From Boseongicola aestuarii (lineage in GTDB: Bacteria > Pseudomonadota > Alphaproteobacteria > Rhodobacterales > Rhodobacteraceae), in NCBI RefSeq assembly GCF_900184815.1, contig NZ_FXXQ01000001.1, positions 372,001 to 436,000 on the forward strand: DNA of 64,000 nucleotides, given 5' to 3'. Under the pieces are notes generated by a model. The model was given only the letters and a program-made list of their open reading frames with translations, searched no databases and was not told the origin of the DNA. Made by a program: the position numbers and the translations under genes. Each line of letters begins with the position of its first letter. The stretch's first letter is position 1. Of this stretch, positions 12,286-38,106 are shown piece by piece.

Positions 12286-13245
12286 TTATACAGCGCCGAG
12301 CTTTTTCAGCCGCGCCTCGCGCAGACGCGCGAAATCATCGCCCGCGTGATAGGACGACCGCGTCAAAGGCGTCGCCGATACCATCAGGAATCCTTTGCCA
12401 TAGGCCGCCTTTTCATAGGCTGCGAATTCCTCGGGCGTCACAAAACGGTCAACCGCATGGTGCTTGGGCGTCGGCTGGAGATACTGACCGATCGTCAGGA
12501 AATCGATGTTGGCCGCGCGCATGTCGTCCATCACCGCATGAACCGCCTGCTTATCCTCACCCAGACCCACCATGATGCCCGACTTGGTGAACATCGTCGG
12601 ATCAAGCTCTTTCACCCGCTGCAAAAGCCGCAGCGAATGGAAGTATCGCGCACCGGGCCGCACTTCCGGGTAAAGGCCAGGAACCGTTTCAAGGTTGTGG
12701 TTAAAAACGTCCGGCTTCGCAGCAACAACCACTTCAAGAACCGCGGGATCGCAGCGGATGAAATCCGGCGTCAGGATTTCGATCGTGGTCGACGGGCTCT
12801 GACGACGAATCGCGCGGATCGTCTGCGCGAAATGCTCAGCACCGCCGTCCTCGACATCGTCACGGTCCACCGAGGTCACAACCACATGGTTCAACCCCAG
12901 CTTCTTCACCGCATCCGCAACCCGGCCCGGCTCGAACACATCAAGATCCTCGGGCGGCTTTCCGGTCGCGATATTGCAGAACGTGCAGGCCCGCGTGCAA
13001 ACCTCGCCCATGATCATCATGGTCGCGTGACCCTGGCTCCAGCATTCACCGACGTTCGGACACCCGGCCTCTTCACACACCGTCACCAGCTTGTGCTCGC
13101 GCATGATATCGCGCGTCTGTTTGTAGCCTTCGCTGACCGGAGCCTTCACACGGATCCAGTCAGGCTTCTTGGGCTGAGCGCTATCGGGACGGCGCTGTTT
13201 CTCAGGATGGCGCAGCGCGGGAATTTTCAGATCTTTTTGGGTCAT
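12286..13245 (-). CDS. lipA: Lipoyl synthase
   Basis: 319 aa radical SAM enzyme that inserts sulfur into octanoyl groups of lipoate-dependent complexes. The auxiliary cluster cysteines are C57, C62 and C68; the radical SAM motif is C83, C87 and C90 (CTRACTFC). The C-terminal RSSY that supplies the auxiliary-cluster serine is intact. I chose the ATG at 13245, preceded by AGGAG; upstream in-frame sequence to 13338 is arginine-rich and not LipA-like. It ends 4 bp from the convergent diheme cytochrome. Confidence 0.96.
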
Positions 13246-13346
13246 CTCGGCTCCTCTTGTCACCGATGTAACGCCCCTGCACGCCCAAGTCCAACTCTCG
13301 AAAGGTCGCACATGGCGGCTATGCGCCACATGCAACAAAGTCCCCT

Positions 13347-14432
13347 TTAACCAATCAGCGGCGACCAGTTCCCCGACGCCTCGCTATAGTGCTTCTTCAG
13401 CCGGACCAATGCGATACGCAAAACGATCTTACCCGAGCGCGCGGACCATCCCATTCGCTGTTCCGTCGCCTCAATCCCCTCCAGAAAGCAGCAACAACGC
13501 AAGACGACATCGCCAAGTCCCGGCCCCAGATCGCTCAAAGCATTCGCTACACGCTTACGCGCAGCCTCCGAACCTCCAGCCGCACCGCCGGACGTCGCAA
13601 AATCGGGCTTGCCGCTGGCGGTCAGGAACCGGTCCCAGTTTTGCGCCACCCGAGGCCCTAGCTGCGCCAGTTCGAAATCCTCCCGTAGCCGCTCGCCCGC
13701 CGCCACCAGTTCGGGTGCCAGGAACGGCTCGCCGGACTTGTCGCGACGCCGGGCCAGCGACAAAAGCGGGCCTTCGGTCGCATTATAACGCACCCGACGC
13801 CGCTTGCCGCGCGCGTCGCGGTCCATGCGCATGCCGTGCTCGCCGTGCTGCGCGGAGAACGGGTTCGTCTCGTCAGTCAGCCCCGCGCGCGCAGCCTCGC
13901 CTTCTGCCAGAAACCGCTTCAGCGCATGGCGGCCCGCCGTCGTAATGCGGTATCGCTTGATCCGCCCGTCGCTGTGCAGCGCCACCCAGTCTTTCAACGC
14001 CAAAGCCTCGGCCAAAGGCCGTTCGATCACCGCGGTCCGCAACGTTTGACCGCTGGCGTCCTCGCGCACGATCACCGCCTTTTCCATGTCCTCGGCAATT
14101 GCCAGACACGCCCCCGGCTCATTGAGACGGCGCAGCACGCGCGGCGCCTCAGTGCGGATTTCAGCCTCATCGGGCATCACAACTTCATTGATCTCTACAG
14201 ATAAGGTCATCGTATCTTCGTCCTCGACATCACAAAAGGCCGCAAGATCCGTCGACTGCGCCGCGCCCAATCGGGTCAGCGCACGGTCTACAAGAAAATC
14301 ATCGCGGCGGGTTTCATACCGGCGCACCTGCCGCAGGATGGTCGAAGCATGACACCCCGCTTCCCGCGCCAGTGACCGGATCGACTGACCCTGCTCGGTA
14401 TGCGCGAGATAATGCCTCACCTCCTGTGGCAC
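13347..14432 (-). CDS. HTH + DUF6456 regulatory protein, candidate GafA-type gene transfer agent activator
   Basis: 361 aa. The N-terminus (about 1-45) is a helix-turn-helix: [22 protein letters not shown]. The middle is charged, and residues about 200-345 look like the Rhodobacterales DUF6456 domain ([21 protein letters not shown]... up to [12 protein letters not shown]). From memory, GafA, the direct activator of the R. capsulatus gene transfer agent, belongs to this protein group; that identity was not checked. The GTG at 14432 is the only usable in-frame start and lacks a ribosome site. A short ORF with a strong one overlaps it out of frame (see 14417-14479). A DUF6477 gene is divergent. 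Confidence 0.72.
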
Positions 14433-14479
14433 CCATGCGGGGACACAGACCGTGTTTCTCTCTCGTTCAGACGTTGCAT
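14417..14479 (-). CDS. 20-codon leader ORF overlapping the DUF6456 gene start
   Basis: ATG at 14479 is preceded by GGAGG with 5-nt spacing, the best ribosome site in the region. The ORF reads [20 protein letters not shown] and stops at 14417, overlapping the GTG of the DUF6456 gene by 16 nt in another frame. A -1 shift around the CCCC run (about 14441-14444) would fuse it to the main frame, which continues with [13 protein letters not shown]. It may be a coupled leader peptide, the true N-terminus reached by frameshift, or a one-base sequence error. Confidence 0.4.
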   Translation of the reverse strand: MQRLNERETRSVSPHGCHRR

Positions 14480-14720
14480 GACAGCCTCCAAATCATCGGA
14501 TTCTCGAAAACGAAGCGTCCGGAACAAGACGCCCGACCACCTTAACAAGAAACAACCCTTAGTTGCAATTGCTTCCAGATCGTTAACAAAACCGATATGG
14601 ACCGCCTGAACAGCCGATTCTAAACAACTGTAAACTCAGCCGAACGGTATTTCCGTCAATACGGCAACACACGCGTAGGTTGTATTATGCCGATTTCAGA
14701 TGAAGCAAAGGAATCACATT

Positions 14721-15020
14721 ATGGCCGATCCAATGACCCACATCGCAACACTGCGCCGCCCGCGCCTTTTGATCCGAGCCGCCCGCCACGGGCAGGCAAA
14801 CTACAGCCGCGAGCGCACCCTCGCCCGCGTTCTGACACAGCCACAGACCTCCGCCGATGATGTTTTGAACGACCTCATGCAGACTGAAGCCCGGATCGAA
14901 GCAACCCGCACCAACGGTGACATCGCCTACTCGGTCGCACGCCATATCGAAGTGCTCATAGCCCTGATGGGCGAAGCCGCGCTGATGCTTCAGCGCAACC
15001 GCACGCCAGAAGGCATCTGA
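14721..15020 (+). CDS. DUF6477 family protein
   Basis: 99 aa, small and soluble. The segment HIATLRRPRLLIRAARHG and the end, YSVARHIEVLIALMGEAALML, match the conserved blocks I recall for DUF6477 in Rhodobacteraceae; the function is unknown. The ATG at 14721 has AAGGA 8 nt upstream; the ATG at 14700 has none. It is divergent from the DUF6456 regulator across a 288-bp gap containing two TTAACAA half-sites but no full CtrA box. Confidence 0.75.
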   Translation: MADPMTHIATLRRPRLLIRAARHGQANYSRERTLARVLTQPQTSADDVLNDLMQTEARIEATRTNGDIAYSVARHIEVLIALMGEAALMLQRNRTPEGI

Positions 15021-15026
15021 CGCGCC

Positions 15027-16571
15027 TTAACCGAACGCGTCGGGCTCCGACGCTTTCTTGTTGTCTACATACGCCATCAGGGCCTCGCGCGTCGCCGGCT
15101 CCATCGGCGGCGCCTGATAGTCCCGCAACAGCTTCTCGACACGTGCGCCGGCCAGGGCGACGGTGTCGCGCTCGCCTTCTTCGGCCCATGTCTCGAACGG
15201 CTTGTAATCAAACAAATCCGTCCGCCAGAAGGCCTCTTTGAAATTCGCCTGTGTATGGGCGCACCCAAGGAAATGACCGCCCGGTCCGACCTCGCGCAAA
15301 GCATCCATTGCCTGCGCGCCTACCGTCACATCGACCCCACGCGCAATATGATGCAACGTCCCAAGCTGATCGGCATCCATTACGAACTTCTCGAAACTCG
15401 CCACAAGCCCGCCCTCCAGCCAGCCCGCGGCATGAAGCATGAAATTCACACCAGACAACAACCCGACATTCAGCGAATTCGATGTCTCATACGCGGCTTG
15501 CGCATCCGGCAGCTTCGAGCCACAAAACGACCCCGCCGAGCGATACGGCAAACCCAGCCGACGCACGATTTGCCCCATGCCATAAGTGATATGCGCCGCC
15601 TCCGGCGTGCCGAACGTCGGCGCGCCCGAATTCATGTCGATCGACGTCACGAACGCCCCCGCAATCACCGGAGCACCAGGGCGCACCAACTGCGAATAGG
15701 CCACGCCCGCCAGAATCTCGGCTGTCACCTGCGTCAAGGTGCCTGCGACACTGACCGGTGCCATCGCCCCCCCGACGATAAAGGGCGAAATAATCGACGC
15801 CTGATTGTTGGCCGCAAAGACTTCCAGCGCGCCCATCATCGTCGAATCAAACGTCAGCGGAGAGTTGATGTTGATCAGCGAGGTCATCACCGTGTTCTCG
15901 GCGACGAACTCCGCTCCGAACAGGATCTTGCACATGTCCACCGAATCCTGCGCCCGGCGCGGCTCCGTCACCGACCCCATGAAGGGTTTGTCCGACAGCG
16001 TCATGTGGGCCAACAGCATATCCAGATGCCGCTTGTTTACCGCCACATCGGTCGGCTCGCACACCGTGCCACCCGAATGATGCAACCACTTCGACATATA
16101 CGTCAGCTTCACGAACTTCTGGAAATCCGCGATCGTCGCATAGCGCCGTCCGCCCGCGGCATCGCGCACGAACGGCGGGCCATAGACCGGCGCCAATACC
16201 AGAGTCCGCCCACCGATCTCGACATTGCGTGCCGGGTTCCTCGCGTGCTGCACATAAGACGACGGCGCGGTGGCGCACAGCTTGCGCGCCAGTCCCTTGG
16301 GCAAACGCACCCGCTCGCCCTGCACATCCGCGCCCGCGTCCTTCCAAAGCTTCAATGCCGCCGGATTGTCCACAAACGCGACGCCAATCTCCTCCAGCAC
16401 CGTCTCGGCATTGGCCTCGATGATCTGCAAAGCCTCCTCGTTCAGAACCTCGAAATTCGGAATGTTGCGCTCGATAAATCTGGCAACTTCGATCCGAACC
16501 GCCGTGCGTTCCGCCCGTCGGGCTGCTCCGCCACCACCACGCGCTCTGCGCCGGCCACCATCTTCTGACAT
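15027..16571 (-). CDS. Trimethylamine methyltransferase (MttB) superfamily protein
   Basis: 514 aa, the full MttB length. Blocks such as TVLEEIGV, SDKPFMGSVT, and AGAFVTSIDMNSGAPTFGTPE match the superfamily. The frame contains no internal TAG, so this is a non-pyrrolysine member; characterised relatives demethylate glycine betaine or other quaternary amines and hand the methyl to a corrinoid protein. No corrinoid protein or its methyltransferase partner lies nearby. The N-terminal 25 residues are Arg/Gly-rich. The ATG at 16571 has GGAG 7 nt upstream. It is convergent with DUF6477, 6 bp apart. Confidence 0.88.
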   Translation of the reverse strand: MSEDGGRRRARGGGGAARRAERTAVRIEVARFIERNIPNFEVLNEEALQIIEANAETVLEEIGVAFVDNPAALKLWKDAGADVQGERVRLPKGLARKLCATAPSSYVQHARNPARNVEIGGRTLVLAPVYGPPFVRDAAGGRRYATIADFQKFVKLTYMSKWLHHSGGTVCEPTDVAVNKRHLDMLLAHMTLSDKPFMGSVTEPRRAQDSVDMCKILFGAEFVAENTVMTSLININSPLTFDSTMMGALEVFAANNQASIISPFIVGGAMAPVSVAGTLTQVTAEILAGVAYSQLVRPGAPVIAGAFVTSIDMNSGAPTFGTPEAAHITYGMGQIVRRLGLPYRSAGSFCGSKLPDAQAAYETSNSLNVGLLSGVNFMLHAAGWLEGGLVASFEKFVMDADQLGTLHHIARGVDVTVGAQAMDALREVGPGGHFLGCAHTQANFKEAFWRTDLFDYKPFETWAEEGERDTVALAGARVEKLLRDYQAPPMEPATREALMAYVDNKKASEPDAFG

Positions 16572-16801
16572 GTTCAAGCTCCAAACTTCAGGTTAGCTTC
16601 TGATACACCAGCCCCGCGCCCCTCAGCGCCAGTTTGCGCCCTCTCGATTGCGAAAACGACATACCGCCTTCTTCTGTTCAAAAATATCCACAATCCGACC
16701 CGTGACGCCCCACCCGCGCGCCCGGCATGATCGCACCCCCAAAGCCGCGCGGATCCCGAAACCACCTTGCACAAAACGCCCCTCCCGCCTAATCAACGCC
16801 C

Positions 16802-18376
16802 ATGACAGATCAAGCCCACGACCGCCTCCTCATCATCGACTTCGGCAGCCAGGTGACCCAGCTCATCGCGCGCCGCCTGCGCGAGTTGAACGTCTATTGC
16901 GAAATCCATCCGTTCCAGACCGTGACGGACGCCTTTCTCGACGACTTCGCGCCCAAAGCCGTGATCCTCTCCGGCGGCCCGGCCAGCGTTGTCCATGACG
17001 GCTCGCCCCGCCCACCCGCCAGCGTCTTCACGCGCGGTGTGCCGGTCCTTGGCATCTGCTATGGCCAGCAAGTCATGATGCAGATGCTCGGCGGCCGCGT
17101 CGAAGGGGGCAAAATCTCCGGCGGCGGCGGCACAGCAGAATTCGGCCGCGCCTATGTCATGCCGACAAGCCAGACCCCGCTTCTTGACGGCTGGTTCGAC
17201 ACAGGCCGCGAACAGGTCTGGATGAGCCACGGCGACCACGTCGCCGAACTCGCACCCGGCTTCGAAGTCTACGGCACCTCGCCGAACGCACCCTTCGCCA
17301 TTACCGCCGACCCAAGTCGCAACTTCTTCGCCGTGCAATTCCACCCCGAAGTCCACCACACACCCAAAGGTGCGAAACTCTACGAGAATTTCGTCCGTCT
17401 TGCGGGCTTCACGGGTGACTGGACGATGGGCGCCTACCGCGAAGAAGCGATCCGCAAAATCCGCGAAACCGTGGGCGACAAAAAGGTCATCTGCGGCCTC
17501 TCGGGCGGCGTCGATTCCTCCGTAGCTGCCGTCCTCATCCACGAGGCCATCGGAGACCAACTCACTTGCGTTTTCGTTGACCACGGTCTGCTGCGCCTCA
17601 ACGAGGCCGACGAAGTCGTCAAGATGTTCCGCGACAACTACAACATCCCGCTGATCCACGCAGACGAAAGCGAGCTGTTCCTCGGAGAACTCGACGGTCA
17701 GTCCGACCCCGAAACCAAACGCAAGATCATCGGCCGCCTGTTCATTGACGTCTTCCAGAAATACGCCAACCAGATCGAAGGCGCCGAATTCCTCGCCCAG
17801 GGCACGCTCTACCCGGATGTCATCGAAAGCGTCAGCTTCTCTGGCGGACCTTCCGTGACGATCAAAAGCCACCATAACGTCGGCGGTCTGCCCGAGAAGA
17901 TGGGCCTGAAACTCGTCGAACCACTGCGCGAACTTTTCAAAGACGAAGTGCGGGCGCTGGGCCGCGAACTGGGCCTGCCCGCCAGCTTCATCGGCCGTCA
18001 CCCCTTTCCGGGGCCAGGCCTCGCCATCCGCTGCCCCGGCGAGATCACCCGCGAAAAACTCGAAATCCTGCGCCGCGCCGATGCCGTCTACATCGACCAG
18101 ATCCGCAAACACGGTCTTTACGATGAAATCTGGCAAGCCTTCGCCGCCATTCTACCGGTGCGCACCGTCGGCGTGATGGGCGACGGGCGCACCTACGATT
18201 ACGCCTGCGCCCTGCGCGCAGTGACCTCCGTCGATGGTATGACGGCGGATTATTACCCCTTCGATCATGACTTCATAGGCGAAACCGTTACCCGCATCAT
18301 CAATGAAGTCCCGGGCATCAACCGCGTCTTTTACGACGTCACTTCCAAGCCTCCGGGCACGATTGAAATGGAATAA
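16802..18376 (+). CDS. guaA: GMP synthase (glutamine-hydrolysing)
   Basis: 524 aa. The class I glutamine amidotransferase domain has the triad C86 (GICYGQQ), H181 and E183 (FHPEVHHT). The ATP-pyrophosphatase domain has the PP-loop SGGVDSS at 234-240, and the C-terminal dimerisation domain ends KPPGTIEME as in other GuaA. It converts XMP to GMP. A long antisense ORF on the opposite strand is a codon-bias shadow. Confidence 0.97.
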
Positions 18377-37803: not shown

Positions 37804-38106
37804 ATGAGCGAAAAGACTGTGACACGCATGGATCTCAGCGAAGCGGTGTTCCGCGAAGTTGGTCTCAGCCGTAACGAATCTGCCCAATTGGTAGAAGGCG
37901 TTCTCGCCCATATGTCTGACGCACTTGCCGCTGGCGATCAGGTGAAAATCTCCTCTTTTGGCACCTTCTCGGTCCGCGACAAAGCAGCCCGCGTCGGTCG
38001 TAACCCCAAAACCGGCCAGGAAGTCCCGATCCATCCGCGCCGCGTCCTGACATTCCGTCCGTCGCACCTGATGAAAGATCGCGTCGCAGCCGGCAACAAG
38101 AGCTAA
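37804..38106 (+). CDS. ihfA: Integration host factor alpha subunit
   Basis: 100 aa. The DNA-bending arm carries [12 protein letters not shown] with the intercalating proline; [14 protein letters not shown] precedes it. IHF alpha pairs with IHF beta, which is not in the window. AGGGGA lies about 5 nt upstream of the ATG. Confidence 0.95.

Follow-up and report, generated by a model that had tools for sequence, protein, structure and literature searches.

The window, a 64-kb stretch of the Boseongicola aestuarii genome (G000; other G numbers denote compared genomes), contains a 361-aa open reading frame, gafA, that adjoins lipA on one side and a divergent DUF6477 gene on the other, with guaA located beyond an mttB gene. 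The features of this locus and the domains of the encoded protein are as follows.

12286..13338, minus strand: lipA (lipoyl synthase), downstream flank of gafA
13347..14432, minus strand: gafA, 361-aa open reading frame whose only in-frame starts are GTG 14432 and GTG 14420
14417..14479, minus strand: frameshifted gafA leader
14480..14699, no strand assigned: gafA/DUF6477 divergent promoter region
14700..15020, plus strand: DUF6477 gene, divergent from gafA
15027..16577, minus strand: mttB-like methyltransferase, inserted between DUF6477 and guaA, likewise in the Boseongicola sisters
16802..18376, plus strand: guaA (GMP synthase), upstream flank of the gafA block
GafA residues 1-65 (approximate): N-terminal HTH
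GafA residues 88-190 (approximate): central winged-helix-like domain
GafA C-terminus: DUF6456 with a sigma-region-4-like HTH (HTH about residues 282-356)

The window encodes a GafA orthologue next to its usual partner

In Pfam, the 361-aa open reading frame matches DUF6456 (PF20057) over residues 214-350 (E 1.1e-60, 204 bits, cut-off 26.3), and its N-terminus gives HTH_38 and HTH_28 matches just under the cut-offs. These results agree with the preliminary description of the protein, which joined an N-terminal HTH to a C-terminal DUF6456 region. In the structure model, helices are predicted with confidence for residues 3-44, residues 88-190 are modelled as a PadR/MarR-like winged helix (Z about 6.5), and residues 282-356 superpose on region 4 of SigL and SigD4 (Z 8.8 and 8.6 over ~75 residues). 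The latter scores are moderate; sigma factors top the list of structure matches, and the match was foreseen from the literature. A Foldseek search of the model against the PDB returned nothing at E<=0.001.

GafA of R. capsulatus (rcc01865) likewise combines an HTH with DUF6456, is flanked by lipA and guaA and has a small divergent neighbour (PMC6363796), and the window model is in line with its published sigma-like C-terminus (PMC9638019). In R. capsulatus, the N-terminal HTH is DnaA-like and the central part binds RNA polymerase omega; the window protein has the sub-threshold HTH_38/HTH_28 matches and a predicted winged helix at residues 88-190. The G000 locus also differs in having mttB between the block and guaA, a broken gafA start frame and a deleted head-tail cluster. 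In Caulobacter crescentus, the N- and C-terminal parts of GafA have their homologues in two separate genes, GafY and GafZ (PMC9632790, PMC11150451), as opposed to the one gafA of G000; Caulobacter is the only control genome with a DUF6456 match.

Based on the DUF6456 match, the synteny of lipA, gafA, the divergent DUF6477 gene and guaA, and the sigma-4-like C-terminus, the window gene is a gafA orthologue and a true member of the GafA family, as had been proposed from the sequence. It is present in a single copy in G000. All 36 related genomes have gafA and 35 of the 36 have a DUF6477-like gene beside it, so the pairing is far above chance. That gene (PF20083, E 7e-32) probably starts at the conserved ATG 14721, which is preceded by an AAGGAA sequence resembling a ribosome-binding site. 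By position only, it may be equated with rcc01866, the divergent gafA neighbour of R. capsulatus, mutants of which make immature particles (PMC9638019). Phages carry only a few remote GafA-like matches, with 34% identity in one freshwater phage and weak similarity in RDJL phages, and DUF6477 has no match.

Two other genes of the window were observed in passing. The MttB-family gene at 15027-16577, which separates guaA from the gafA block across Boseongicola, scores far under the trimethylamine-specific cut-off. An ihfA-like gene, read from the sequence only, is located at 37804-38106 after plsX and fabH, probably its ordinary place; in Caulobacter, IHF co-activates the gene transfer agent (GTA) (PMC11150451).

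The conserved gafA start is out of frame

The gafA start of relatives lies about 16 codons before the conserved ...WVP, with which the ATG of G061 and G062 is in frame. Relative to these two genomes, a 1-nt deletion behind the start codon places ATG 14479 of G000 out of frame. This ATG, with its SD sequence GGAGG, opens a 20-codon reading frame that ends at TGA 14417-14419; in the sequence GTGA, this stop shares bases with GTG 14420, a codon in the gafA frame. It is possible that the overlap would allow coupled reinitiation of gafA. With the in-frame conserved start lost, 361 aa is not the natural gafA length, and an intact GafA reading frame from its own start is absent from G000. This absence concerns the function of the copy and not its ancestry. 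Within Boseongicola, pairwise gafA dN/dS values of 0.07-0.085 reflect purifying selection and the G000 branch shows no acceleration; given these two results, the G000 gene may still work.

In the promoter region, GTTGCAATT (14562-14570; AATTGCA(A/C)C on the gafA strand) is shared with the region upstream of the g1-fusion in Boseongicola. A GafA operator shared across the family was considered and rejected: the motif was not found outside the genus and shows no excess over chance. No full CtrA site was found upstream of gafA at <=1 mismatch in four Boseongicola regions.

The GTA cluster is reduced to a TerL::gp15 scar

L003:16597-19100 (G000, contig C28): TerL-N::gp15-C fusion scar, standing in place of the GTA head-tail cluster

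The sole gp15 of G000 lies on contig C28, downstream of fabF, mltG and g1. At this site, TerL reaches the Walker B Asp-Glu and is followed directly by gp15, from the Gly-Cys past the shared Glu codon (...RGPQFDGAWVDE then IGCAALDKATNQPN). The retained portion of gp15 is its C-terminal half, to which TerL is joined in register; in intact relatives, the two junction points are about 11 kb apart. The locus resembles the RcGTA cluster (g1-g15) in following fabF-mltG and in keeping g1, TerL-N and the gp15 C-terminal half. Unlike RcGTA, it has no sequence between the TerL Walker B and the centre of the gp15 TIM barrel, and has thereby lost the portal, protease, capsid and tail genes. The fused reading frame is itself frameshifted by a single nucleotide inside the TerL part. 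Both 1-nt frameshifts of G000, in gafA and in the fusion, could be sequencing errors, and the deletion is known from assemblies alone.

A combined portal and capsid query found no GTA portal or capsid in G000, a 99.96% complete genome, or in any genome with the same fusion. Three of the fused genomes contain only distant prophage-type capsids (28-36% identity), and intact control genomes match the query at E about 1e-197 or better. The capsid family PF05065 was not found in five Boseongicola genomes.

These results bear on the idea that gafA controls the production of functional particles encoded at another site in the genome. True family membership and synteny speak for it, as does the presence of gafA in 97% of relatives with intact gp15. 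However, RcGTA-like portal, capsid and tail genes were not found in G000, the only gp15 copy is truncated and fused, and the gafA start is out of frame; this explanation is almost certainly wrong. The preliminary description had expected the locus to control phage-like DNA transfer and had advised a search for a head-tail cluster elsewhere; only fabF-mltG-g1 and the ~11-kb scar were found. Of its interpretation, the family assignment stands and GTA control in this organism is unsupported. It had also named two findings that would count against it, a genome that lacks a GTA cluster and a separate, clear gafA: the former describes G000, and the latter does not, gafA being single-copy.

The same junction recurs in at least 14 genera

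In a survey of 295 Rhodobacteraceae with one genome per genus, gp15 is found in 259 genomes and gafA in 269. An identical, codon-exact, in-frame TerL::gp15 junction is read in 14 of the 295, each from another genus (G000, G043, G055, G082, G091, G104, G116, G149, G151, G152, G156, G229, G253 and G256). For G032 and G170, the junction coincides exactly with the start of a contig. The junction is in frame in every unbroken copy, and the fused reading frame is about 830 aa long with few indels. Across 11 intact fusions (849 aligned columns), the Walker A GGRGAGKT and the Walker B Asp-Glu are invariant. The fusion of G116 is highly diverged, with a closest IMG/VR match of 50%, yet it remains open. 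The fused junction itself has no match in IMG/VR; this is unsurprising, since a scar lacking head genes would not be classified as viral. No published report of a TerL::gp15 fusion was found in the literature searched, with subscription papers outside its coverage.

If the TerL-N::gp15-C protein were useful and its expression from the GTA promoter still depended on GafA, one would expect what is seen in the 14 genera, namely a single junction codon, in-frame joining wherever the copy is unbroken and invariant Walker residues. Only this junction would then persist among varied deletions, and gafA would be kept along with it. The divergent but open fusion of G116 and the conservation of the GTA promoter region in Boseongicola are consistent with such selection, whereas the AlphaFold model, for which only 11 sequences were available, shows no confident fold around the junction.

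In the gp15C tree, the fused genomes are ungrouped and at least seven changes are forced by well-supported branches. Monophyly of the fused genomes, as a single origin would give, is rejected in this tree (AU p 0.0005). The tree of the flanking fabF and mltG genes also gives mixed pairs: for instance, fused G043 with intact G038 and fused G116 with intact G026 are paired in both trees. Since fused genomes are mixed with intact ones in both trees, repeated independent loss with the same end points is the simplest reading.

This scatter also fits a targeted deletion, in which a recombination or repair route acting at two sites removes the cluster repeatedly and recently and leaves a functionless fusion. 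However, the two junction sites in intact clusters share just 2-7 nt of exact identity, a value equalled by thousands to millions of other pairs within the cluster, and no conserved recombination sequence is seen. A DNA repeat as the cause of the deletion is therefore not supported, such homology being unremarkable.

The loss in G000 is recent and intact forms may coexist

An environmental contig (L246; IMGVR_UViG_3300045684_000051) extends from the capsid gene through a full, unfused gp15 beyond the junction. Downstream of the junction, and right up to it, this gp15 is identical to that of G000 at 274 of 276 nt (99.3%). Judged by this identity, the contig appears to be an intact, conspecific-like relative of G000; because it is near-identical from the junction onward, the loss in G000 is recent on the species scale. 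For G055, G116 and G104, IMG/VR contains no near-identical intact cluster. Fused lineages show no higher rate of gp15C evolution than intact ones (p=0.84), and the pairwise dN/dS of gp15C in Boseongicola is 0.10-0.13. The low dN/dS values of gp15C and gafA were considered as proof of post-loss selection, and this argument is undone by the near-identical intact contig. The equal rates and the close intact relative also weigh against a useful chimera, in that most fusions may be young.

In three assemblies (L122/L123, L151 and L185), contigs start exactly at the TerL/gp15 junction codon. In G063, the contig starting at the junction and the fused contig share an overlap of 141 nt, equal to the assembler k-mer. 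This suggests that a second, unfused form joins at the junction in that sample and that the two forms coexist. Overlapping partner contigs for G032 and G170 were not found among their neighbours. The apparent second form and the very recent event in G000 are in agreement with a targeted deletion; weighed with the scant homology of its two sites, this mechanism is nonetheless unlikely.

Alternatively, one ancient deletion allele could spread between species as a non-producing cheater and persist next to the intact allele, with recombination homogenising its flanks. This scenario accounts for the identical junction and for coexistence with near-identical intact forms. On the other hand, the gp15C tree follows the flanking genes, and no signal of a common donor is seen near the junction in protein or synonymous sites, although this test is weak because the synonymous sites are saturated. 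Likewise, there was no signal of a short conversion tract from a fused donor, again with saturated synonymous sites. A spreading allele is improbable.

Finally, codon-exact recurrence with little homology, a random spread over the trees and an unchanged gp15C rate could be produced by an artefact of assembly or data handling, in which case the fusions would be absent from living genomes. However, both isolate genomes assembled into 1-3 contigs and MAGs from several projects contain the fusions, the G063 contigs overlap across the junction by exactly one k-mer, and the scar has decayed in G064 and is frameshifted in G000 and G055. Such an origin is highly improbable.

gafA tends to persist with the fusion and to decay with it

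All 14 fused genomes keep gafA, compared with 17 of the 36 genomes without any gp15 (Fisher p=3e-4). In another Boseongicola (G064), gafA, the DUF6477 gene and the scar are all frameshifted; at L128 of this genome, gafA and DUF6477 are pseudogenes, and lipA, mttB and guaA around them are intact. In G055, gafA is interrupted by a nonsense codon, and the fused reading frame is frameshifted. The two genes are thus damaged together in G000, G055 and G064 and intact together in nine other genomes; in sister species, both are intact. Joint damage fits either a remaining functional link or an order of decay in which the cluster is lost first and the regulator later. The retention statistic and the joint damage favour a GafA-driven chimera, but older total losses would explain the former equally well. 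With the recent losses and the lack of a confident fold also counted, a selected chimera is a tenable but doubtful explanation.

Two further observations concern gafA. The stop in the G055 gene (L090) separates the N-terminal HTH from the remainder and is closely followed by an ATG, an arrangement that resembles the GafY/GafZ division. In G088, G135, G153, G215, G252 and G261, gafA occurs without any match to a GTA portal, capsid or gp15, and is thus fully orphaned in further genera.

Discussion

The gafA gene of G000 is very probably an orthologue that was recently orphaned by an ~11-kb deletion within the GTA cluster, and is now probably a failing regulator in a cell that makes no particles. 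As proposed here, GafA is a GTA activator in which an N-terminal HTH is followed by a winged-helix-like central domain and a DUF6456 region resembling sigma region 4, and its gene is divergent from that of its usual partner. Through this deletion, the part of TerL that ends with the Walker B Asp-Glu would have become fused in frame to the gp15 C-terminal half. By taking the portal, protease, capsid and tail genes, it would have made particles impossible and removed the main known target of GafA. With the single-nucleotide frameshifts in gafA and the fused reading frame, translation of GafA would be weak at most, perhaps through coupled reinitiation at the GTGA overlap, and gafA is probably being lost. 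The gene identity, the absence of head genes, the scar, the frameshifts, the recurrence and the close intact relative are read directly from the sequences; we infer the loss of gafA function, the order of events and the forces behind the recurrence.

The recurrence of one codon could be due to selection, to a deletion mechanism, to a spreading allele or, less likely, to an artefact. On balance, we lean towards the view that Rhodobacteraceae lose their GTA repeatedly through one codon-exact fusion of the TerL ATPase half to the gp15 hub half, by way of either a GafA-controlled, selected chimera or a dedicated deletion mechanism.

As a consequence, gafA, gp15 fragments or a terminase match in a genome are not evidence of a capacity to make GTAs. 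The recurrent deletion shows how a GTA is lost, what remains and how fast the regulator follows. Whether GTAs are selected or are costly relics is a standing question, and a dated, recurrent loss whose intact and deleted forms apparently coexist in nature makes this question testable.
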